From Myxococcota bacterium (GTDB lineage Bacteria; Myxococcota; XYA12-FULL-58-9; JALHOP01), in the NCBI GenBank assembly GCA_022842935.1, contig JALHOP010000003.1:310001-374000 (forward strand): DNA of 64,000 nt, in the 5' to 3' direction. The position numbers and the translations under genes were made by a program. Under the pieces are notes generated by a model, which had not been told where the DNA came from, did not search any database, and saw nothing but the letters and a program-made list of their open reading frames with translations. This document shows positions 1,153 through 61,830 of this stretch, piece by piece (positions within the stretch are counted from its first letter, which is position 1; every line of letters starts with the position of its first letter).

Positions 1153-2415
1153 ATGATCGCGATTCACGATCCCATCCACGGCACCATCGAAGTCTCGGCC
1201 ACTGAGATCAAGCTAATCGACTCGCGTCCGTTTCAGCGGTTGCGTCACATCAAGCAGCTTGGTTTCTCGGAACTCGCTTTTCCAGGTGCGACGCATACGC
1301 GTTATGCTCACTCTCTCGGCGCCATGGCGATGGCGACGCGCATGGTCGAGCGCGCGCTCGCGGTGGTCGAGGCAACCGACGCCGAGAAAGCACGCCTGCG
1401 CCAAACCGTGCGGCTCGCGGTGCTCTTTCACGATTTGGGGCACGCTCCGATGTCGCATGTCAGCGAGCGCGTCATGCCCGATGCTGGCGAGCTCGCGCTC
1501 GGCGTTTGGGTCGACGATCCCAAACGCCAGGCCACGCACGAGGACTACACCGTTCTGCTCCTCACGCGCTCCGAGCTTACACAGCTCATCGACGAGCAAG
1601 TCGGTGCGATTGGCGTGACAGGGGCACGGCTCGCCGCGCTCGTCATGGGCACGCCTCCTCCCGGTGACGAGAAGGCCTTCGTCGTCGGCGGAGTCGATCT
1701 CTTGCCGCTCTTGCACCAGATCGTGTCGAGCGAGATGGACGCCGATCGCATGGACTACCTGCGACGCGACGCCTATTACGCAGGCGTCACCTACGGGAAC
1801 TTCGACCACCAGTGGTTGACGGCGAACATCACCGCCGTCGAGTGGGAAGGCACCTTGGCCATGGCGCTGCAGCATCGCGGCATGTGGGCCTTCGAAAACT
1901 TTCTGCTCGCGCGTTACCACATGTTCTTGTCGGTCTACTACCACTACACCCCGATCTGCTTCGACTCATTGCTCGGCCGCTTCTACGAGTCCGGTGAATA
2001 CAAGCTACCCGCTGACGCCGAGGGCTATCTTGCTACCGACGACGTCGAGCTCAACATGGCGCTGCGCCGCTCGAGCGACCCATGGGCGAAGCTCGTTGTG
2101 CGCCGAAGGCCCTACCGCATGCTCGTCGAGACGCACGAGTTCAGCGCCAAGGAAGCGCCGACCATCGATGCCAAGCTCAAGGACGCCGGGGTCGACTTCT
2201 TCCGCGCTACCAGTCGCGGTGTGCTCTCGAAGTACTTTCGCAAACGCGACGAAGCATTTCCGCTCTTGGTCATCGAGCCCGAGCGCAACCGCGTGAGCCG
2301 TATCGAGGACTACACGCCGTTGTATCGTCGCTTCGATGAAGCGGTGGCGGTCTCGCGTGTCTACTGCAAGCCCGAGCACCTCGAGCTCGCCAAGAAGGTG
2401 CTTGCGTCGCCTTAG
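1153..2415 (+). CDS. HD-domain phosphohydrolase (COG1078, dGTPase/SAMHD1-like)
   Basis: This 420-residue protein belongs to the HD superfamily of metal-dependent phosphohydrolases, in the group that includes dNTP triphosphohydrolases. The opening 'IHDPIHGTIEV' is typical of COG1078 proteins. The metal ligands are visible as His53 in 'RYAHSLG', His93-Asp94 in 'LFHDLGH', and an Asp-rich 'SEMDADRMDYLRRD' segment near residues 195-205. The frame is open further upstream, but the extension to 1057 does not look conserved, and the ATG at 1153 places the family N-terminus at residue 1. The likely role is nucleotide hydrolysis in the cytoplasm; the substrate cannot be read from sequence. It stands alone, facing a minus-strand operon downstream. 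Confidence 0.85.
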   Translation: MIAIHDPIHGTIEVSATEIKLIDSRPFQRLRHIKQLGFSELAFPGATHTRYAHSLGAMAMATRMVERALAVVEATDAEKARLRQTVRLAVLFHDLGHAPMSHVSERVMPDAGELALGVWVDDPKRQATHEDYTVLLLTRSELTQLIDEQVGAIGVTGARLAALVMGTPPPGDEKAFVVGGVDLLPLLHQIVSSEMDADRMDYLRRDAYYAGVTYGNFDHQWLTANITAVEWEGTLAMALQHRGMWAFENFLLARYHMFLSVYYHYTPICFDSLLGRFYESGEYKLPADAEGYLATDDVELNMALRRSSDPWAKLVVRRRPYRMLVETHEFSAKEAPTIDAKLKDAGVDFFRATSRGVLSKYFRKRDEAFPLLVIEPERNRVSRIEDYTPLYRRFDEAVAVSRVYCKPEHLELAKKVLASP

Positions 2416-2457
2416 CCTTCCGAACGTATCTGCATCGATCGCGGCGGCCCGTCGCGG

Positions 2458-2787
2458 CTACTTTCGGAATGCGAAGAACACAGCCGCCACCAGGCAGACA
2501 GCCGCGATCAGGTGGTTCTGCGTCAGCCGCTCGCGCATGTAGATAGTCGCGAAGACCGCGAAAACGGTCAGCGTCACGACCTCTTGAATGGTCTTGAGCT
2601 GCACTAGCGAGAACCTGCCGTAGCCGAAGCGATTCGCGGGAACCGCGAGGCAGTACTCGAAGAACGCGATACCCCAGCTCGTAAGAATGGCTAGCCACAG
2701 AGGTGATGTGCCTTGCTCGCGGAGGTGCCGATACCAAGCGAACGTCATGAAGACGTTCGAGGCAACGAGCAGGAGGATGGTGCTCAC
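2458..2787 (-). CDS. DUF486 family small membrane protein (DMT-like)
   Basis: This 109-residue hydrophobic protein has four predicted membrane helices and the strong DUF486/COG3169 pattern: 'ILLLVASNVFMTFAWY' at the start, 'WGIAFFEYCLAVPANR' in the middle and 'QLKTIQEVVTLTVFAVF' in the third helix. The length equals the family norm. The family resembles half-size drug/metabolite transporters of the inner membrane, but no substrate is established. The start is a GTG preceded by AGGGG six bases upstream, only nine bases after the stop of the HWEYG repeat protein, so it is probably the last gene of that operon. Confidence 0.9.
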   Translation of the reverse strand: MSTILLLVASNVFMTFAWYRHLREQGTSPLWLAILTSWGIAFFEYCLAVPANRFGYGRFSLVQLKTIQEVVTLTVFAVFATIYMRERLTQNHLIAAVCLVAAVFFAFRK

Positions 2788-2796
2788 CCGGAGCCC

Positions 2797-3246
2797 CTAA
2801 GCCGTGCTCAGGGCGGCAGCCATCAACGCGAGTGCCCAGGGCTCGGTCACGCCGGGACCGGAGCCGAACTCCCAGTGCGCCTTGCTCCCGCGACCCGAGC
2901 CGTACTCCCAGTGCACTTTGCTACCGACTCCCGCGCCATACTCCCAGTGCGTCTTGCTGCCGACGCCCGAGCCGTACTCCCAGTGCGTCTTGCTGCCGAC
3001 GCCCGTGCCGTAGTCCCAATGCGTCTTGCTGCCGATGCCCGTGCCGTAGCCCCAGTGCGTCTTGCTGCCGATGCCCCCGCCGAATTCCCAGTGGGTCTTG
3101 CTGCCGGGCCCGCTGCCATACTCCCAGTGGACCTTGGAGCCGGCAAGGCGACCGACCTCGGTTGGGAGGCTGCCCACGAATGGCTGGTCGGTGGCCGCGG
3201 CTGGCACGGACGCGGCGGAAGGGCCAAAGGGACGAACATTGGTCAC
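2797..3246 (-). CDS. Tandem 12-residue repeat protein with G-S-K-x-H-W-[EDG]-[YF]-G units; unknown function
   Basis: This 149-residue protein has a 35-residue leader without a signal peptide, eight adjoining 12-residue units (residues 36-131) and an 18-residue tail containing 'PWALALMAAAL'. Gly1, Ser2, Lys3, His5, Trp6, Gly9 and Gly11 of the unit are invariant. Position 4 is Thr, Val or Ala, position 7 is Glu, Asp or Gly, position 8 is Tyr or Phe, and position 12 is Val, Ile, Pro or Arg. The GTG start has a good AGGAG ribosome site ten bases upstream. Units differ at synonymous codons (for example three codings of Gly-Ser-Lys), which suggests selection on the peptide. It lies 83 bases behind an RlmN-type radical SAM gene on the same strand. 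I do not recognise the family; a structural repeat or a multi-core modified peptide are both possible. Confidence 0.75.
   Translation of the reverse strand: MTNVRPFGPSAASVPAAATDQPFVGSLPTEVGRLAGSKVHWEYGSGPGSKTHWEFGGGIGSKTHWGYGTGIGSKTHWDYGTGVGSKTHWEYGSGVGSKTHWEYGAGVGSKVHWEYGSGRGSKAHWEFGSGPGVTEPWALALMAAALSTA
2854..3141 (-). repeat. Eight tandem 36-bp coding repeats
   Basis: The eight 12-codon units of the HWEYG-type protein are encoded by adjoining 36-base repeats with no spacers. They are similar but not identical, and several differences are synonymous. They are therefore protein-coding repeats and not a CRISPR array. Confidence 0.85.
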
Positions 3247-3329
3247 GGTGCGAGAGCTCCTGCGGGGACCGCAGGAATATCGCTACGCCGTTCGCGGCCG
3301 TTGTCGAATTCTCTCCCCGAGCCTGAGGG

Positions 3330-20832: not shown

Positions 20833-23800
20833 CTAGACGTAGGAGATCTTGCTGCGCGAGGCCTTCTCCGCCTCGGTCTCGGTAAGCAACTCGTCGAGCT
20901 CACTGGTGACGTCGCTGCCACCTTCGCCGCGAGCGCGGCCAAGGCGCTCCTCGACATCGCGGAAGCTTGCGTCCCAGCTGTGAACCTTCTCGTAAAACTT
21001 GCCGGCCTCTCCGAAACGGCCGGTGGCTTCGTAGGCCACGCCGATCTCGTAGCGAAGGGCCATGGCCTGCTGCGCGGTCACCGACGGCGCGTTCAAGCCC
21101 CGCTGAAAGTACGCAAGAGCATGCTCGGTATCGCCGAGCTGGAGGGCGCATAACCCCATCATCGTGAGTGCTCCGATCGCCCGCGTTGGATCTTTCGCCG
21201 CGAGCTCGAATTCACGGATGGCGTCGGGGAGGAGATCCATCTCCTTGTAGGCGATGCCGAGGTCGTAGTGGGTTGCGTAGTCGGCTTCCTCGACGCTCTC
21301 GGCCACGCCCTTCTTGAAAGCGTCGAAGACGTCATCGAGCGACTCTTGCAGGTCGTCGTCCGCCGCAGCGGACTGGAGATCGGCCGCAATATCGAGACCC
21401 AGGTCGCCACCAATGAGCATCTCCGGCTCGGGCTCGTAGTCGAGCGCGGCGGCTGGCGGCAGGACCGGCTCCGCGGTGCCGTCGACCTTGGCCTTCATGG
21501 CGAGCAAGTCGGGGTGTGTCGGATGCTCGCGCAGGAGATTGGCGACCATCTCGCGCGCTTCGTCCTCGAGCCCCTGCTCGAGGTAGAAGCCGATTTCGGC
21601 TACCTCGCTGGCCAGATCGACTGGAGCGACTTCGGAGACTCCGTCGTTCGCTTTGGCGGCAGCTGCCGCAGCGTTGGCCGCCGCCTCGGTTTCGGCCGCG
21701 ACCCGCGCGGCTTGCGCCTTCTCTGCTTCGAGACGCTCGGCCTCGGCCCGGGCTGCCTCCGCCTTGGCCGCGGCTGCGGCCGCCAAAGCAGCCTCGTGAC
21801 GCTCGGCTTCCAGCTTTGCGGCGGCTTGGGCTGCCTCGAGCCGTTCGGCCTCGGCTTGCGCCCTGGCTGCCTCGTCGCGGGCTGCTTCCGCTTTAGCCGC
21901 TTCAGCTTTGGCGGCGTCTGCTTTGGCTTGCTCCGCCTTGGCGGCCGCCGCGAGTCGGGACTTGTCGGCTGCCGGCTTCGTTTCCTTGGGGCGCGAGGGG
22001 ACAGCGGAGTTGATCAGCGCGTCGAGATCGTCGTCGAGCTTGGTGGTCGTTCTGACCGGCTTGGCCTTTGCGGCGATCGGCTCTTCGGCACTCGGCTTCT
22101 CGGCACTCGGCTTCTCGGCGCTTGGCTCTTCGGCACTCGGCTTCTCGGCGCTTGGCTCTTCGGCGCTCGGCTTCTCGGCGCTCGGCTTCTCGGCACTCGG
22201 CTCTTCGGCGCTCGGCTTCTCGGCGCTCGGCTCTTCGGCGCTCGGCTTCTCGGCGCTCGGCTTCTCGGCGCTCGGCTTCTCGGCGCTCGGCTCTTCGGCG
22301 CTCGGCTTCTCGGCGCTCGGCTTCTCGGCGCTCGGCTCTTCGGCGTCAGGCGCTTTCGCCAACCAGTCCGTATCCGCTTCGTCTTCGACCTCGAATGTCA
22401 GCTCGAGTGTCGTCCCCGGCGCCGCCGTCTCGACCTCGATGCGAGGAGCACTCGTTTCGACGGTCGTCGGGGTGCTCTCGGCGAAGGTGAGCTCATCCAA
22501 CTTGCTGTGGGTAGGTGGCTCGTCTTCGAGCTCGACCGTGATGCCCACGGTGTCGTCGTCATCATCCCCAATGATGAGGCCGGCTATCGAGGGGGCGTCG
22601 ACGGCGCTCGTGGCGTCGAGGTCGGCGCCGATGATCGAATCGTCGTCGAGCTCCATCTCGGCGTGGGCGCCAATAAGCTCCTCGTCGTCCGCATCGAGAT
22701 CGATCTCGGCTGCTTTTTCGGACGGTTCGTACGAAAGCATGGCGGCGGCGGCCTCGCGCGGCGCGGCAATTGCCGGGACGTAGTCGTCGCTGACCATATC
22801 GTCGGTGATCGTCAGCTCGTCTTCGTCGAGCTCGTGCTCGAACGAAAGCGCCTCCGGGCCCTTGGCTGCCGCTGGGGCAAGCTTTGCGAGGAGGTCTTTG
22901 GCGCGTCGGTGGCCTGGCGTAAGGCTGAGCAGCTCCTCGAGGTCGCGGCGTGCGGTCTCGGTTTCGCCTTGCTCGACCGCTACCGCGGCCATGCCCAAGA
23001 GAACCTCGACGGCCTCTTCGTTGGCGCCGGTATCGATGAGGAGCGTCTTGTAGCGGGAGCGCGCTTCGCGGTGGTCGGGCGCTAGGGCGAAGATCTTGCG
23101 TAGGTGGTCGACGGCCTTCTGCTTCAAGCCGTATTTTATGTAGACCTCGGACTCGACCAAGATGCGCGAGATGGTCTCGCGCGTGTTGTCGCCGAGCCCC
23201 CCGCGCGTTGGCGTTGGCGCGACCTCGATGGCATCGGCGCTCGCGAGCTCTTGCTCGTCGAAGTCAGTCTCGATCTCGATTTCCTCGTCCGCATCGACTT
23301 GTGGCGGGCGACGATCGATCTCCTGCACCGGTGACTCGGGCCTTGCCTGCACGGCCTTCTGCGCCGGCACGATGCGACCGAGGGCGTTGTCGGGCAATTG
23401 CGAGGACTGCGCGAGCTGCGCTGGCGAGACCTCACCCGTGCCGCGACGCGCGGGCGCTGCTGGCGGGGATTGTTGCTCGGCGATGCCGCGCGCTGCGGCA
23501 ACCTGCGCCGGCGAGACCTCGCTGGTGCCTCGGCGTGCCGCGCCTTGGGCGGCGATCGCCTCCATGGCGGCGATCTGCGCCGGGCTGATTTCGCCCGTCG
23601 AGCGGCGCTGAGTCTGGTTCACCACCTGTTGCACCGCGGCGACCTGCTCAGGACTCATCTCGCCGGTGATACGACGCGTCGGCATCGCCAACGCTTGAGC
23701 GGACTGGACCTGGGAGGGCGACACCTCCATCGTGGGCCGGCGAGGTGGCGGCGTCGCGGGGCCACCTTGAGGTGTGCTTTGGCGTATCGGTGGCTGTGGC

Positions 23801-29818: not shown

Positions 29819-32800
29819 TTAACCGCCCGACATGGTATCGCCGCCCGAGACCGTCGACTCCGAGCGGTTGACGATCTTCGGTGAGATGAAGATGAGCAGC
29901 TCGCTCTTGTTGTCACGATCCGTGCGGTTCTTGAACAGCCATCCCAGAAGAGGGATTTGCGATAGCACCGGTACCTGGCTGTACTGACGGGTCGTGTTGC
30001 GCGTGTAAATGCCGCCAATCACCGTGGTGTCGCCGTCGTTCACGAGTACCTCGGTCTGCGCTTCGCGACGCTCGATGGTTGGGTCGCCGAAGGCTCCGGT
30101 CCGCGCGAAGTTGGGCTCGTTGCGCGTCGCATGGATGCGCATCAAGATGGCTCCGTCGTTCGTGACGTGTGGCGTGACCTCGAGCTCGAGGTTCGCCGGT
30201 ACGAAGCGCGTATTGGCGCCCGCCGCGCTCGTGACGGTGATCGGGATGTCGACGCCTTGCGAGATCTTGGCGGTGCGGTTGTCCAAGGTCGCAACACGTG
30301 GCGACGAAATGATGCGTCCGCTACCGCGGCCCTCTAAAGCCGCGAGGCGAAGCTGCAAGAGCTGCGAGCCGCCAGCCGATCCGAAGACGAGACCAATAGC
30401 GCCGCCAGTGGTGATCGCCGCCGGCAGATTCACCGCGTAGCGACCTGGGCTGGTCACGCCGTCGGTTGCACCAGTGCCGTTCGCACCCGTCGCGATGATG
30501 TCGCCAGGAAACGAGAGACCGGTCGGGTTACCGGTGGCCGCGGTCGCCTGTGCCTGACCGCCCCATTGGACACCGAGGTCCTGGCTGAAGTTGGTCGAGG
30601 CCTCGACGATCCGTGCTTCGATGAGCACCTGCGGCGTTTGCTTGTCGAGACGACGGACGAGCTCGACCAGGCGATCGATGTTCGAACGCACATCTTCCAC
30701 AATGATGGTGTTGGTGCGCTCGTCGGTTTGAACGGTGCCACGCGTCGACAAGAGCGACTTCACCTGATTCACGACCTCGCCGGCACTCGCGTAGTTCACC
30801 GTGACGATCTTGATGACCTTTTCTTCGATCTCGATCTGGGACTTCTGGCGGGCGATCTCCGCGTCGCGCTCGCCTTGGATCTGCGCGGCTGGCGCAATGC
30901 GCAAGATGTTGTGCGAGCGCACCTTGTCGTAGCCTTTGCTCTTCAAGATGGTGTCGAGCGCGGTCTCCCAGGGGACGTTACGCAGACGCACCGTGACTTT
31001 GCCCTTCACGTCTTCGCTCGTGATGATGTTCTCGCCGGTGACGTCGGCGATGAGGCGGATGACGTTGACGATGTCGGCGTCCTTGAAGTTCAAGCTGACT
31101 CGCCGAGCGCGGCCCGACGCGGCACTCTGCGCTGGAATCGAGCGGGCAACGGCGGCGGCGGCGCTCACGTATCCGGCTGCCTGCGGAGTGCGCTGCGTGG
31201 CGACTTCTGGCTCGGACTTCTCCGCGATAGCAGGCTCTGGGGTGGCCTTGGTTTCACCCGTGATCTCCCAGGCAATCGAATTGCCGTCGCGTAGCAGTCG
31301 CTGCGTCGCTGTGCCCTGCAACTGCACGACGATATTGACGATCTGGGGGGCGCGCGAAGCCTGGTAGGTCGAGACCAAGCGGACGACGCCACCATACGCC
31401 GAGGTATCCAGAGACTTCTCGAGGGCGGCATCGACGTGTGTGCCAGTCAGCTCGAGTACCCAGGCTTTCTTCGAACGGTCGTCGACGCGAGTTTGGACGT
31501 CACCCGAGAGGGCGAGGGTGATGCGCGAAACTCTTCCGCTTTGGTCGAAGTCGACCTTGCGGAGTTGGGCCACAGCTCCTTCCTCGCCGGCCGGTCCTGC
31601 GGCTCGCTCACTCGCCACCGCGCTCTCTTCGCTCGCCTTGGATCTTGCCTTCACCTTGCGAACGGCAATGCGCACGCCGCGGGAGTCGCTCGTCACCGCA
31701 TGCTCGACGTCGGCGCTCGCAAGGTCGATCACGGCGCGGACCATTCCCTCGTGCTCGCCCAAGCGGACACGGCGGACGTTCGGCGCATCGACGCCGTAGC
31801 TCGTTCGCTTCACCTTGCGCTGTGCGCCGACGAGGTCGACCACCAGACGTGGTGGGTCATCGACGCGCTCGACGCGAGGCTCGACGTTGCCGTCGAGAGC
31901 CAGAAGCACGCCATCCCCGGCCCGCGATACGCCGGTGAGACCGACGGTCTTGAAGACTTGCTTGGGGGCTGCCGCGGAGATCAACGTAGGCTCGACGTCG
32001 GCGCGTGGTGTTTCGGCGAGCGCCACCGTGCGGGCTTGCTCGACCTTGGCCCGTGCCGCCTGCTGTTCGGCGGTGAGCTGAGCTTCGCGGGCGCTCAGCT
32101 GCGCCTGCATCTTTTCGAGGCGCACTCGCTCGCTGTCGAGCTGCGCCTTTTGACTCGCAACCTCGCGCTGGACGCCGGCGAGCGCCGCCATGGCCTCCTG
32201 CGCCTTCTTCTCGCGAACCGCGATAGCCTCGAGCTTGATGTCGGTGTCGCTGCGCGCTTTGTCTGCCTCGGCCTTGGCCTGCACGGCGAGCCGTTGAGCG
32301 GTGTCGGCATCTTTCTTGGCTGCGGTAGCCCGAGCGGTGGCCTCAGCGGCTTCGCGCTTCTCGCTTTGCGCCTTGGCGACCTGATCCTCGAGCTCGGCGA
32401 CTCGTACCTTGTGCTTGGCTTCCGCGAGAGTCGCGGCCTGAACAGCGTCCTTGCGAGCCTGCTCCGCTTGAGCGGCCTTACGGTCCGCTTCGGCTTGCGA
32501 TACGGCGAGCTTGGCCTGCGCGTCGTTGAGCTGCTGCAGACGCAGCTCGGCCCGCGCGAGTGCCTCGTTGGCCTTGGCACGATCACGTTCGACGGCTTCA
32601 CCCGCCTTCTTGCGCTGCTCCTCGGCGTCTGCTTTGGCGGCCTGCGCTTCCTTCTGTGCTTGCTTGGCCGCAGATGCGAGACGAGCGGCCTCCTCGCGCT
32701 CGCTCTTGGCGGTGTCGGCGGCGGCGTCCGCTGCCTTGCGTTCGGCGGTCGCTTTGTCGGCCAGGGCGGCAGCCTCTTTCTTGGCCGCTTCGAGTCGCTC

Positions 32801-56310: not shown

Positions 56311-57327
56311 CTACGCTGCTTTCTTCACATCGACGACCTTGCCTTTTTCGATGATCTGCTGCCGGACCATGGCCGCGAGCTTGATGTCGTTTTCGAGCGC
56401 CGCCGCGGTCCGCTCGCGTCCCTGCCCCAACTGCTTGTCGCCGTGCGCGATCCAGGCCCCCGTCCGCGTTAGCACACCCGACTCTAGCCCTTGATCGACG
56501 AGGTCCCCCGGTGCCCAGAAGCCGCGCCCGTACAACACGTCGAGCTCCACTTCGCGGAATGGTGGCGCCAGCTTGTTCTTCACCACCTTCACGCGCGTGC
56601 GGTTGCCGATCACCTTGTCGCCGTCTTTGATGGGGGACATGCGGCGCACCTCGACACGCACTGACGCGTAAAACTTCAGCGCGTTGCCGCCAGTCGTGAC
56701 CTCTGGGTTGCCGAAGACTACGCCGATCTTCTGGCGTAGCTGATTGATGAACAACATGGTCGTGCGGCTCTTGTTGGCAACACCCGTGAGCTTCCGCATG
56801 GCCTGGCTCATGAGGCGAGCCTGCAGGCCCATGTGCGCATCACCCATCTCGCCTTCGATCTCGGCGCGCGGCACCAGGGCTGCGACAGAGTCGAGGACGA
56901 GAATGTCGATCGAGCCAGAACGCACCAATGTCTCGCAGATCTCGAGCGCCTGCTCACCACTGTCGGGCTGCGACACCAGGAGCTGATCGAGATCGACACC
57001 GAGCTTCTTTGCATAGCTCACGTCGAACGCGTGCTCTGCATCGATGAACGCGCAGATGCCGCCAGTCTTCTGCGCTTCCGCGATCGCGTGTAACGCAAGT
57101 GTGGTCTTACCGGACGACTCGGGCCCGAAGATCTCGACGATACGCCCGCGAGGAAAGCCGCCGACCCCGAGTGCGAGGTCGATGCCGATGCTTCCGGAGG
57201 GAATGACCTGGGTAGGCTCGAGCGTCTCACGCTCACCCATCCGCATGATGGAACCCTTTCCGAACTGCTTCTCGATGGCGCTGATCGCCTCTTTCACAAC
57301 CTTCAACTTGTCACCGACGCTGCTCAT
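56311..57327 (-). CDS. recA: Recombinase RecA
   Basis: The 338-residue protein has all RecA hallmarks: '[13 protein letters not shown]' at the N-terminus, Walker A 'GPESSGKT' at 68-75, '[20 protein letters not shown]' for Walker B, '[20 protein letters not shown]' for loop L2 and '[21 protein letters not shown]'. It binds single-stranded DNA, drives strand exchange and triggers the SOS response. The ATG at 57327 has a near-perfect AAGGAGGT site; an upstream ATG at 57369 is rejected. The acidic C-terminal tail typical of E. coli RecA is short here. A 15-base palindrome lies 101 bases upstream. It heads the group recA, CPBP, Crp, TPR, serS. Confidence 0.98.
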
Positions 57328-57442: not shown

Positions 57443-57487
57443 GCGTTTTTCGGGGGGGCTGGCGGGAGAAGGGGGGGAAGCTTAATC

Positions 57488-57536
57488 GGCCATCGGCCAT
57501 CGGCTTTCGGAAATCGGCTTTCGGAAATCGGCCATC
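57488..57536 (-). repeat. Degenerate heptanucleotide array, minus orientation
   Basis: Read on the minus strand the stretch is exactly seven heptamers: GATGGCC, GATTTCC, GAAAGCC, GATTTCC, GAAAGCC, GATGGCC and GATGGCC. It faces the plus-orientation array 20 bases away, so the two could pair partly as an imperfect hairpin. Confidence 0.85.
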
Positions 57537-57556
57537 GACATCAGCTGCTGCCAACC

Positions 57557-57661
57557 GAGAGCCGAAGACCGAGAGCCGAAGACCGAGATCCGAGATCCGA
57601 GATCCTAGATCCGAGATCCGAGATCCGAGATCCGAGATCCGAGATCCGAGATCCGAAAACC
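57557..57661 (+). repeat. Heptanucleotide tandem array, plus orientation
   Basis: Fifteen consecutive heptamers on the plus strand: GAGAGCC and GAAGACC alternating twice, then GAGATCC nine times plus one TAGATCC variant, and a final GAAAACC. The GAGATCC part is nearly perfect and must be the youngest; the remainder follows the GANNNCC consensus. It lies 64 bases upstream of the dnaG start. Confidence 0.9.
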
Positions 57662-57725: not shown

Positions 57726-59657
57726 GTGGTCGAGAACGAGAAAATCGAGCAAATCCGCGCCCGCGCCGATATCGTCCGTATCATCGGCGCGCACGTGCAG
57801 CTTCGTCGTCAGGGCCAGCGCTTTACCGGCTTGTGCCCCTTTCACGGTGAGAAGAGCCCTAGCTTCTCGGTCTCGCCCGACAAGGGCCTCTTCTATTGTT
57901 TTGGCTGCCACGCCCGCGGCGACGTCTTCAGCTTCGTCGAGCAGATGCAGGGACTCGATTTCCTTTCGGCAGCGCGCTGGCTCGCCAAAGAGGTCGGCGT
58001 CGAGCTCGAGCCCGAGTCCCCGGCCGAGGCAAAGAAGCGCAAGCTCGAGAGCGGTGTCGCCGAGGTCAATCGTTACGCGCTCGCGTTCTTCCAGCACGAG
58101 CTGTGGGCCAAAGACGGCGCCGCCGCGCGCAGGTACCTCGATGACCGCGGCATTCCCGAAGAGCAAGCGCGCGAGCGTGGTTTGGGCTTCGGGGGCGCGC
58201 CGGGCAGGCTGCTGGCCTTCCTCCAGGCCAAGAAGGTCGCGAGCGAGGGCGTGCGCGCGGCAGGGCTACTCAACGACCAAGGTGACCGCTGTCTTTTCGA
58301 CGAGCGTCTCATTTTTCCGATCGTCGATCAGAACGGCCGCATCGCCGGGTTCGGCGGGCGGTGGCTCGGGGACACCAAGATCGATGGCGAGCGCACCCGC
58401 CCGAAGTACGTCAACACGCGCGAGAGCCCTCTCTTTAGCAAGCGCACGCTCCTATACGGTTGGGACGTCGCCCAGCCCGCCGTCCGCCGCGCCAAGCGCG
58501 TGACGATCTGCGAGGGTTACACCGACGTCCTCGCGTGCCAGCGGGCCGGTATCGAAGACGCGGTGGCGGCTCTCGGCACTGCCTTCACGTCCGAGCACGC
58601 AAGCCTCGTCAAGCGACTCGCAAGCGACGCTATCATCTTGCTCGACAGCGACGCGGCGGGTGAGCGCGCGAGCAAAGAAGCCGCGGAAAAGTGTATCGCC
58701 GCCGGCCTGAAAACTCTGATCGCACCTTTGCCGGCGGGTGATGACCCCGACAGCGTGGTGAAGAAGAGCGGAGCCAAGACGCTCGGTCACTACGTCAACA
58801 ATGCCAAACCCGCCGTCGAGCATTTCATCGACCGCGCCTTTGCGGACGCGGGCATGGGCGTCGAAGACAAGGCGCGCGCGGCTCTCGCGCTCTGGCCACT
58901 CTTCAAGGCCTTGGGCCCGAGCCTCGAGCGGGACTTGTATCTCGCGCAGCTCGCCAACAGAGTCGGCATCGATCAGGCCCAGCTCGAGAAGAGACTCGCG
59001 GCACAAGAGCAAGACGATCGACGCGCGGCCCGGGCCGAGCGCAAACCAGGCGATGGCCGGGGGCCGCTCCGTGATGGCCGATGGCCTGGCGCCGATGACC
59101 GACATCCGACCGCCGGCAAGCGAGCGCCGATGGCCGATGGCCGATATCCGAACGCCGATCACCGAGAGCCGATCGCCGAGGGCCGGGCTCCGGCGCCCGA
59201 GAAGCCTCGGCCTCCGCCGCAGCCCACCGACGACGAGCTGCGCGCGGTCACCGAGCTGCTGATTTACCCTCCCCTGCGCAACCGTCTCACCGAGCTATCG
59301 ACCTTTGCATCGCCGCCTCTGCTGCCCATCTTAGAGGCGCTGGTGGCTTCGGCCGATCCCGCCCACGAGATCCTCGCCCGCCATGGGGTTGGGCCCCGCT
59401 GGGTCAAGCTCGCCGAGAAGGCGGCGGCGGTGGTCGTGGCCACCCCGGCCGATGACGATGCCAACCAAGAAGAGCGACTCCAGAAGACGTTCGGGGACGT
59501 TTTGCGTAACTTCGAGCGCAGGCACGTTGGCGTGCGCAAACAGGCAATAGACCTAGCGATTCAGGAAGCCAAGGCGCGTGGAGAGCCCACCAATGAGCTG
59601 GAAATTCAGCGCAGAGACTTGACGTTGCGCCAGCGCGAGCTAAAACCGCGCGATTGA
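57726..59657 (+). CDS. dnaG: DNA primase
   Basis: The 643-residue protein has the zinc-binding domain (Cys37, His40, Cys58, Cys61; 'GLCPFHGEKSPSFSVSPDKG', 'FYCFGC'), the RNA polymerase core with 'FDERLIFPIVDQNGRIAGFG' and a TOPRIM fold ('TICEGYTDVLACQRAG', 'DAIILLDSDAAGERA'). The C-terminal helicase-interaction domain begins after about residue 495. DnaG makes RNA primers at the replication fork and docks on DnaB. The linker of about residues 440-493 ('MADGRYPNADHREPIAEG') is coded by a degenerate heptanucleotide array. The start is a GTG at 57726. rpoD follows on the same strand, as in the classical macromolecular-synthesis operon. Confidence 0.97.
   Translation: MVENEKIEQIRARADIVRIIGAHVQLRRQGQRFTGLCPFHGEKSPSFSVSPDKGLFYCFGCHARGDVFSFVEQMQGLDFLSAARWLAKEVGVELEPESPAEAKKRKLESGVAEVNRYALAFFQHELWAKDGAAARRYLDDRGIPEEQARERGLGFGGAPGRLLAFLQAKKVASEGVRAAGLLNDQGDRCLFDERLIFPIVDQNGRIAGFGGRWLGDTKIDGERTRPKYVNTRESPLFSKRTLLYGWDVAQPAVRRAKRVTICEGYTDVLACQRAGIEDAVAALGTAFTSEHASLVKRLASDAIILLDSDAAGERASKEAAEKCIAAGLKTLIAPLPAGDDPDSVVKKSGAKTLGHYVNNAKPAVEHFIDRAFADAGMGVEDKARAALALWPLFKALGPSLERDLYLAQLANRVGIDQAQLEKRLAAQEQDDRRAARAERKPGDGRGPLRDGRWPGADDRHPTAGKRAPMADGRYPNADHREPIAEGRAPAPEKPRPPPQPTDDELRAVTELLIYPPLRNRLTELSTFASPPLLPILEALVASADPAHEILARHGVGPRWVKLAEKAAAVVVATPADDDANQEERLQKTFGDVLRNFERRHVGVRKQAIDLAIQEAKARGEPTNELEIQRRDLTLRQRELKPRD
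59052..59184 (+). repeat. Degenerate heptanucleotide array (GANNNCC) inside dnaG linker
   Basis: The 133 bases split without gaps into 19 heptamers. Examples in order from 59094 are GATGACC, GACATCC, GACCGCC, GGCAAGC, GAGCGCC, GATGGCC, GATGGCC, GATATCC, GAACGCC, GATCACC, GAGAGCC, GATCGCC and GAGGGCC. The frame reads GAN-NNC-CGA-NNN-CCG-ANN-NCC, so each 21 bases give a seven-residue D-x-R-x-P-x-A pattern. The same strand, phase and length (19 units) are seen in the aroKB linker. Confidence 0.88.
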
Positions 59658-59772: not shown

Positions 59773-61830
59773 ATGGCAGCAAAGAAGCCGGTGAGCAGCA
59801 AAGGCAAGAGCGTCGCCAAGCCCGCGCCAGAGAAGCGCACAGCCAAGACCAAGCCCGCCGCGTCTGCCAAGACGTCGCGAAAGCTGCACAACGCGAAGGC
59901 AGCCAACGACGATGATATCGCGGCTGACAGCGACACCCCCAAAGCCGGTGGCAAGGCTGCCCGTGGTAAGGGCAAAGGCGCCTCCGGACGCGGCAGCGAT
60001 GCAGGGAAAGACGTGAGCACATCCTCCCAGGGCGGGGCGTCGTACGCCGACGACTCTGAAGGCCTCTTCGAGTCGAGTCCCACTGCGGGCAACAAGCTCG
60101 TCGATCGCAAAGAAATCAAGACTCTCCTCTCGAAGGCCAAGAACAAGGGCTTCGTGACGATGGACGAGGTCAACGAGGCGCTTCCCGACGAAGCCATGTC
60201 CTCGGATCAGCTCGATGAGGTGCTCGAGCTGTTTGCCAAGTCGGAGATCGAAGTCGTCGACAAGGGCAAGCCCACCTCGCAGCGCGCCGCGGTGAAGAAG
60301 CCGTCCAAAGCCAAAGCCGCCGACGACGAAGCCAACGTCAAGTCGAGCGATCCCGTGCGCATGTACCTGCGCAAAATGGGCTCCGTTCCGCTCCTCACGC
60401 GCGAGGGCGAGGTCGAGATCGCCAAGCGCATCGAAGAGGGCGAGAAAGAGGTCCTCGGGGTCGTCATCAGCTCGAGCATTGCCATCCAGGAGATCATCGA
60501 TCTCGGCAACCGCCTGACCAACGACAAAGTGCGCGTGCGCGACGTCGTGCGTGACTACGACGAAGAGTCTGCAGACATCGCGGTCGAGGACTCGCGCAAA
60601 CAGCGCATCCTCCGCAGCATCGACAAGATCACCAAGCACCACGAGCAGAACGTCAAGCTCGTCGAGCAGATCGTCGGCAAGCCCGAGGGTGACAAAGGCC
60701 GAGTCAAGGCGCAGGCGCAACTCGACAAGAATCTCGGCGAGATGCAGACCGCGCTCGAAGAGGTGAAGCTCTCGAAGAAGCAGATCGACCGCATCGTGCT
60801 TCGCTTGAAGTCGCTCATCCGCCGTGTCGAGAAGGCGGAGAACGAAGTACGCAGCGTCGAGCGCACCATGGGCGTCGACGGCAAAGAGCTCAAGCGCCTA
60901 CTGCGCGAAGCCAAGAAGACGCCAAAAGACGAGAAGCGAGTCGCCAAGCAGCTTCACGTCGGTATCGAAGAGCTCAACGAGACCGAGCGCGTGCTCTCTT
61001 CGGCCAAGCGCAAGGTCGAGCGCATCGAAGAAGAAGCGCACGTCCCGATCGATGAGCTGCGTTTCACCTACGACGCCATCGTGCGGGGCGAGCGCAAGGC
61101 CGAGCGCGCCAAAGACGAGCTCGTCGAAGCGAATCTCCGTCTCGTCGTCAGTATCGCCAAGAAGTACACGAATCGCGGCCTGCAGTTCTTGGATCTCATC
61201 CAGGAAGGCAACATCGGTTTGATGAAGGCGGTCGACAAGTTCGAATACCGCCGAGGTTACAAGTTCTCGACCTACGCCACATGGTGGATTCGTCAGGCCA
61301 TCACGCGCGCTATCGCGGACCAGGCCCGCACCATTCGTATCCCAGTGCACATGATCGAGACCATCAACAAGCTCATCCGCACCAGCCGCTACCTGGTGCA
61401 AGAGCTCGGTCGCGAGCCAACGCCAGAAGAGATCGCGGCCAAGATGGAGCTGCCGATCGACAAGGTCCGCAAGGTCCTGAAAATCGCCAAGGAGCCCATC
61501 TCCCTCGAGACGCCCATCGGTGAAGAAGAAGACTCGCACCTTGGTGATTTCATCGAGGACAAGGCGGTCATCAACCCCGCCGACGCGGTGATCTCGTCGA
61601 ACCTCGCCGAGCAGACCCGCAAGGTTCTGGCGACGCTGACCCCGCGCGAAGAGAAGGTCCTTCGCATGCGCTTCGGCATTGGCGAGAAGTCGGATCACAC
61701 CCTCGAAGAGGTTGGTCAGGACTTCGAGGTTACGCGCGAGCGTATTCGTCAGATCGAAGCCAAGGCGTTGCGCAAGCTCCGCCATCCGTCGCGCAGCAAG
61801 CGGCTCAAGGCGTTCGTCGACGGCGGGTAG
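59773..61830 (+). CDS. rpoD: RNA polymerase primary sigma factor RpoD
   Basis: The product from the ATG at 59773 is 685 residues. The first 100 residues are a Lys/Ala-rich tail. Region 1.1 ('[20 protein letters not shown]'), region 1.2 ('[20 protein letters not shown]'), a large helical non-conserved insert, region 2 ('[20 protein letters not shown]', '[20 protein letters not shown]'), region 3, and region 4 with the helix-turn-helix ('[20 protein letters not shown]') all follow. This is the vegetative sigma factor that reads -10 and -35 elements. Alternative starts at 59725 and 59707 would add up to 22 residues; neither has a ribosome site. It follows dnaG on the same strand after a gap of about 115 bases. 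Confidence 0.96.

Follow-up and report, generated by a model that had tools for sequence, protein, structure and literature searches.

The window, by which we mean the whole 64,000-nucleotide stretch of Myxococcota DNA analysed here, contains the DNA primase gene dnaG between a divergent gene, which we take to be recA from its sequence, and a gene for a primary sigma factor (Table 1). Inside dnaG lies a degenerate heptanucleotide array. As the original prediction had it, its 133 bp divide without a gap into 19 heptamers on the forward strand, of which 15 fit GANNNCC; by column, G1 is found in 18/19, A2 in 15/19, C6 in 17/19 and C7 in 18/19, and the window shuffled 40 times under a Markov-1 model gives best 19-unit stretches with only 2–3 such fits. 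Read in its other phase the array is CCGANNN, with a CCGA chain at 59078–59203 in which 13 of 18 cores are intact, and CCGA-NNN is the better notation for the unit. The same unit had been claimed at two other loci in the window and was indeed found there, in the gap between recA and dnaG, as two arrays of opposite orientation. Folding of this region as RNA (57480–57660) predicts a hairpin of -79.2 kcal/mol (z = -6.0), in which the two arrays can pair with each other. Two further tandem repeats were seen in the window: an 18-copy repeat of the 15-bp unit CGGCGCTCGGCTTCT (22071–22345), which is of coding type, contains one CCGA per unit and is unrelated to the heptamers, and a repeat of a 36-bp unit at 2863–3129 (7.4 copies, 84% matches).

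Table 1. Genes and heptamer arrays at the dnaG locus (window positions) and at the dnaX locus of the same genome.
Feature	Position	Strand	Basis and remarks
recA, divergent from dnaG	56311..57327	-	ORF and sequence
CCGANNN array, recA-dnaG gap	57483..57531	-	7 units, 7/7 cores; inverted relative to 57555-57659
CCGANNN array, recA-dnaG gap	57555..57659	+	15 units, 14/15 cores intact
dnaG, DNA primase, 643 aa	57726..59657	+	Pfam Zn_ribbon_DnaG, DNAG_N, Toprim, DnaB_bind; array peptide is residues 443-493
Heptamer array in dnaG linker (GANNNCC / CCGANNN, 19 units)	59052..59184	+	15/19 fits, shuffles at most 3
Primary sigma factor (rpoD-like), 3' of dnaG	59773..61830	+	ORF; named by conserved sigma-70 region 2-4 sequence
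dnaX (DNA polymerase III gamma/tau), L034	G000:C1:31182-32936		array 32407-32518

In the protein, the residues encoded by the array follow the Toprim core and precede the C-terminal domain. They had been placed between the primase core and the helicase-docking domain; the position after the core holds, whereas the Pfam DnaB_bind match (residues 365–417) comes before the array and not after it. The coding argument was correct: 21 bp are seven codons, and in this frame the NNN triplet is the only one that can become a stop. DnaG homologues are present in seven other genomes of the order. The linker is 76 residues long here as against 29–41 residues, free of any array, in five of these relatives (a sixth sequence is incomplete), and the relatives' linkers are short, unconserved and unrelated in sequence, so that conservation of the linker at the amino-acid level in the absence of heptamer DNA was not seen among them. 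A single scan of contigs for further DnaG relatives yielded just two matches, both discarded: a distant Parcubacteria copy, and a match of the linker peptide in Lapillicoccus that is due to chance and comes without an array. The dnaG array has no gene of its own and is in this sense a solo array.

The array belongs to a family dispersed over the source genome (G000; a draft of 6.28 Mb in 46 contigs), as judged by pattern searches of the genome and an 864-kb sample. Runs of the unit had been expected genome-wide and are far above chance, with 429 five-unit CCGANNN matches versus 13 for a control with the reversed pattern. No tetramer but CCGA/TCGG is strongly enriched at period 7 in the sample (121 five-unit starts; the runner-up has 21 and shuffles 0), where CCGA recurs only at period 7 and its multiples save in the 15-bp coding tract. 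The lengths of intergenic chains are bimodal, with eight dimers that represent background, no chains of 3–5 units and nine of at least six. Using a simple home-made gene caller on the source genome, by which about 90% of it is coding, we placed 28 of 32 arrays between genes, often no more than tens of bp from a stop codon or gene 3' end and with no strand preference relative to the neighbouring genes. The arrays thus resemble dispersed heptamer simple sequence repeats in occurring at many loci above chance and mainly in intergenic DNA. Because heptamer arrays lie at the ends of many contigs (among them L087, L092, L095 and L096) and copies of the element have been collapsed, the counts of arrays and elements in this draft are lower bounds.

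What is conserved in these arrays is the core. Over all arrays 94% of CCGA cores are intact, and neighbouring units differ per position by 2–7% in the core versus 54–60% in NNN, a contrast that is repeated in G002, a second genome of the order, except for 12% at the first C, and that is partly built in since arrays were picked by CCGA; the tetramer enrichment test is free of that bias. The NNN triplets come in blocks (CAG CAG CAG ACG TTG CTA CTA CTA CCA CCA CCA AAA...), indicating that duplication of units is at work, and higher-order periods of 14–42 bp are present within arrays. Adjacent triplets that differ have often changed at 2–3 positions while the core stayed intact, which, in arrays picked by CCGA, argues against pure slippage combined with uniform point mutation. 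Two-unit words are no more commonly shared between different arrays than after relabelling; three-unit words are shared in excess in the source genome (13 versus a mean of 2.0), mostly owing to the element end described below. The G-tracts of the TCGG core are two long, with longer ones only by chance within NNN, rather than the three or more of a potential G-quadruplex.

Four arrays of the source genome lie in coding sequence: in DnaG, in DnaX, in the stretch before a DUF2339 domain and in one frame without Pfam matches. Two replisome proteins, DnaG and DnaX, therefore carry a CCGANNN array. That of DnaX occupies residues 409–446, past the end of gamma/tau domain III at residue 366, and that of the DUF2339 protein residues 117–168, ahead of the domain that starts at 193. 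In the latter none of the 8 in-frame triplets is a stop whereas 11 of the 13 off-frame triplets are TAG, TGA or TAA, which makes the permissive coding phase visible; many intergenic arrays contain stop triplets. The most damaged cores are those in dnaG and dnaX (12 of 16 intact in the latter), as would be expected if purity, and hence slippage by 7 nt, were harmful in essential genes. The fourth frame (L046, G000:C1:262893-264854, minus strand) holds its array in antisense orientation; in it a membrane-anchored protein is apparently fused to the signal peptide of a second protein, and the frame may be two genes. The idea of a repeat family in the linkers of core genes is accordingly borne out as to the family, which is genome-wide and reaches the linkers of DnaG, DnaX and the DUF2339 protein, but a preference for coding linkers is not seen, given how many arrays are intergenic.

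Within the order, abundant arrays occur in two of eight genomes, the source genome and G002 (456 matches, of another family), the rest having 0 or 1; in 50 further genomes of the phylum there are essentially no CCGANNN arrays. The same two genomes have matches above cut-off (33.8 bits) to PF05635, the family of 23S rRNA intervening-sequence (IVS) proteins, or IVP/S23 four-helix-bundle proteins: two genes in the source genome, scoring 67.1–68.1 and 61.2–62 bits, and 15 matches in G002, one of them below cut-off. The other six genomes have none. This co-occurrence (Fisher p = 0.036) rests on two draft genomes whose contigs are broken by arrays, and the adjacency of arrays and IVP genes is stronger evidence than the two-genome coincidence, itself weak. 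Three arrays of the source genome (C1:2130-2458 and the ends of C10 and C15) lead into one common sequence containing a GC-rich hairpin, a PF05635 gene (68.1 bits), a second IVP gene in inverted orientation and a further array; contig ends cut two of these three junctions. All 16 IVP genes measured in the two genomes have an array within 0.9 kb, at a median distance of 29 bp, as against 2.5% of random 3.3-kb windows in the source genome and 0 of 70 on four G002 contigs picked without regard to arrays.

Elsewhere in Myxococcota, PF05635 genes lie beside arrays with other cores, namely ACCTGG/CCAGGT (G010), GACGTN (G060, G139), GGTCGN (G073, G020) and TCGANNN at period 7 (G027). In 20 regions picked for IVP alone (34 genes, mostly convergent pairs), arrays of period 6 cover 7.1% of the bases within 300 bp of an IVP gene versus 0.17% beyond 2 kb, a ratio that is partly an intergenic preference because the far zone is mostly coding; under a strict detector, with thresholds of our own, 12 of the 34 genes have such an array within 300 bp and others somewhat farther away. 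The clearest case is G073, whose assembly is one contig of 5,277,990 bp. Here an array-IVP-IVP-array unit of 1.66 kb (query 1611–3271) exists in copies that are 90–92% identical, similarity stops at the outer array ends, and at the orthologous site in G072 these flanking matches are 176 bp apart, with neither element nor array in between. The unit thus behaves as a mobile element, being repeated, having defined ends and facing an empty orthologous site, and at this locus arrays and IVP genes have been gained or lost as one. As in the source genome and G002, the gene pair is bracketed by outer arrays in direct orientation. Across the genus to which G072 and G073 belong, IVP copy number tracks array count (Spearman 0.81, n = 9): genomes without IVP have 0, 0, 0 and 55 array matches and those with 1–8 IVP genes have 10, 146, 44, 1048 and 1271. 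The 55 (CGACCN)5 matches are those of G072, which has no PF05635 match; perhaps they are relics.

IVP genes on plasmids in four phyla outside Myxococcota are mostly flanked by short degenerate arrays of 7–8-bp units, usually inverted. The hosts are cyanobacteria (Nostoc, Calothrix, Anabaena, Pseudanabaena, Aulosira, Geminocystis and others) as well as Riemerella, Gemmatirosa and Azospirillum. For 23 non-redundant plasmid loci, a set biased toward cyanobacteria, both the periodicity of the flanks (p = 1.6e-14) and their inverted similarity (p = 1.2e-7) differ from same-locus controls. An array was undetected at some IVP genes, including two on plasmids (L288, L324) and many of the 34 Myxococcota genes. 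Three of the array-flanked genes on cyanobacterial plasmids reside in CRISPR operons, two of type I-D and one of type III-B (L279, L287, L284). On plasmid AZO_p2 of Azospirillum lipoferum (L283) an unannotated IVP gene has GGA/GAC-type heptamers at its flanks, and by eye we recognise the surrounding DNA as 23S rRNA, presumably making this an IVS in a plasmid-borne rRNA gene. PF05635 gave one distant match in viral contigs and none in phages. Viral contigs with CCGANNN carry mostly homogeneous runs, presumably of independent origin, and six pattern units alone are consequently not diagnostic. Heterogeneous CCGANNN arrays on both strands were seen in just a few, among them L131/L146 (IMGVR_UViG_3300036987_000093) and L188, which are classed as viral and are possibly chromosomal fragments.

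Related systems are known for each of the two components. Avd, the accessory protein of diversity-generating retroelements, is homologous to IVP, and both are small four-helix-bundle proteins of one superfamily; unlike in those retroelements, no reverse transcriptase or template/variable repeat was seen among the frames around the element of the source genome. The closest parallel to the arrays is offered by the heptamers (GGGANTN)n / GGGAATC of Xanthomonas, with 186 (GGGANTN)n arrays in Xanthomonas campestris, and GGGGA(C/T)T of Nostoc (Rehm et al. 2015, PMC4692102), which share the 7-bp unit with a conserved four-base core and variable rest, the intergenic location (89–93% in theirs), the proximity to the upstream gene's 3' end, the frequent inverted pairs and the avoidance of divergent gaps. 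CCGANNN has a different core and three free positions, and as its G-tracts stay below three, the quadruplex explanation put forward for those repeats is not transferable and is weakened. The IVP family is represented in Xanthomonas campestris too, by XCC0516, whose structure is known (PDB 2gsc); we found no link between IVP and such arrays in the open-licence literature, including PMC4692102. In the 23S rRNA IVS of Coxiella burnetii the S23 frame is preceded by tandem GACAGAT heptamers whose number depends on the strain (PMC4990558). IVSs, which sit in 23S rRNA genes and are removed from the transcript by RNase III, have an IVP gene with terminal inverted repeats; the arrays seen here are inverted at most plasmid IVP genes and direct around the gene pairs of the source genome, G002 and G073. 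The elements described here differ in lying between protein genes, in their long degenerate arrays, in often having paired IVP genes and in the presence of solo arrays even in coding linkers, and none of the loci read from this order was located in a 23S rRNA gene. Mainly intergenic direct heptamers of patchy phylogeny also occur genome-wide in Beggiatoaceae, cyanobacteria and Bacteroidetes, with the unit TAACTGA (PMC4679880), and in Calothrix, with three tandem heptanucleotides (cited in PMC4692102); they are nearly invariant and have no gene linked to them. Archaeal Borg elements have tandem DNA repeats within genes that give rise to disordered protein segments (PMC9879509); these are on other replicons, perfect and of longer units, with neither a fixed core and free centre nor IVP.

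One or two IVP genes between arrays, array-IVP(-IVP)-array, make up elements that are present here and, with different 6–8-bp cores, in other lineages. We propose, at a probability of about 0.6, that the degenerate arrays are the terminal, cis-acting part of small selfish IVP elements and that solo arrays are by-products tolerated in linkers. Such an element would have one or two IVP/S23 proteins as its only genes, and the dnaG array would be a solo copy of its CCGA-fixed, NNN-free repeat. A factor in trans, most simply IVP itself or something that IVP recruits, would read the core alone, as DNA or as hairpin RNA, which would account for a core that is kept while NNN drifts; copy number would change by unit-wise slippage or recombination. 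Solo arrays may arise when recombination between the flanking direct arrays removes the IVP core, as in solo LTRs, or by seeding without the gene. For dnaG, arrival without the IVP core or growth in place is favoured, since a 1.1-kb core inside the gene should be lethal. In every seven codons just one can turn into a stop, and such stops are purged, for which reason arrays in proteins would survive only in disordered linkers; in DnaG the array may have added ~40 residues to the linker and then lost purity. What counts against the IVP-element reading is that solo arrays far outnumber IVP copies, that an array was undetected at some IVP genes and that G072 has arrays without IVP, besides the two-genome basis of the link in this order and the expected lethality of a core in dnaG.

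The main competitor, which we consider a serious but clearly weaker candidate, is that slippage arrays came first, growing by a polymerase-favoured 7-bp step in neutral intergenic DNA and linkers, with IVP elements merely landing there. The blocks of identical triplets, the higher-order periods and the presumably independent homogeneous runs on viral contigs fit this, as does the over-representation of 7-bp repeats among bacterial simple sequence repeats, with a polymerase footprint as a proposed cause (PMC4692102). It leaves unexplained, however, why one tetramer is fixed per genome while NNN is free, and why most close relatives that lack IVP have few or no arrays; moreover, the orthologous site in G072 is free of arrays, the arrays and IVP having been gained or lost together. 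A host function, in which CCGA at its 7-bp spacing is bound by a nucleoid, regulatory or RNA-processing protein and selection keeps the arrays as regulatory or terminator-like sites, would be in keeping with core conservation, with the frequent location near gene 3' ends and with the stable hairpin predicted for the recA-dnaG gap. We regard it as improbable, because the arrays show no strand preference relative to their neighbours, the position in dnaG is not conserved, arrays occur in coding linkers and related genomes use different cores.

Selection at the protein level for a seven-residue D-x-R-x-P-x-A linker could be suspected from the peptide rhythm common to DnaG, DnaX and the DUF2339 protein, yet this rhythm is an automatic outcome of the DNA unit, most arrays are intergenic, many with stop triplets, and the DnaG linkers of relatives are short and unrelated; we give it very little credence. 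Finally, dispersed intergenic repeats, some of them inverted, are known from REP/RAYT systems; on this reading the arrays would be of the REP kind and owe their spread to a Y1 transposase of the RAYT/IS200 type. PF01797 is found in all eight genomes of the order and is rarest, with one weak match each, precisely in the source genome and G002. We rejected this explanation, the least probable of those considered, as the distribution of Y1 transposases does not track that of the arrays.

If the IVP-element reading is extended, the elements could represent a widespread, unrecognised class of minimal mobile element with one or two IVP genes bounded by degenerate arrays of 6–8-bp units with a lineage-specific core, in which IVP acting in trans on the core seeds and spreads the arrays, every orphan heptamer repeat of Myxococcota, Xanthomonas and cyanobacteria stems from this system, and solo arrays remodel linkers, including those of two replisome proteins. 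This extension is tentative, and we would sooner bet against it in its full breadth than for it. So far the heptamer arrays of cyanobacteria, Xanthomonas and Beggiatoa have lacked an agent, while for the IVP/S23 'four helix bundle' proteins, abundant as they are, there has been no function outside rRNA. The association described here ties these two orphan features of genomes together, and since they are neighbours in Myxococcota, Cyanobacteriota, Bacteroidota, Pseudomonadota and Gemmatimonadota, the question of agent and substrate can be tested directly. A selfish repeat may also be a route by which essential proteins, DnaG and DnaX among them, gain longer disordered linkers.
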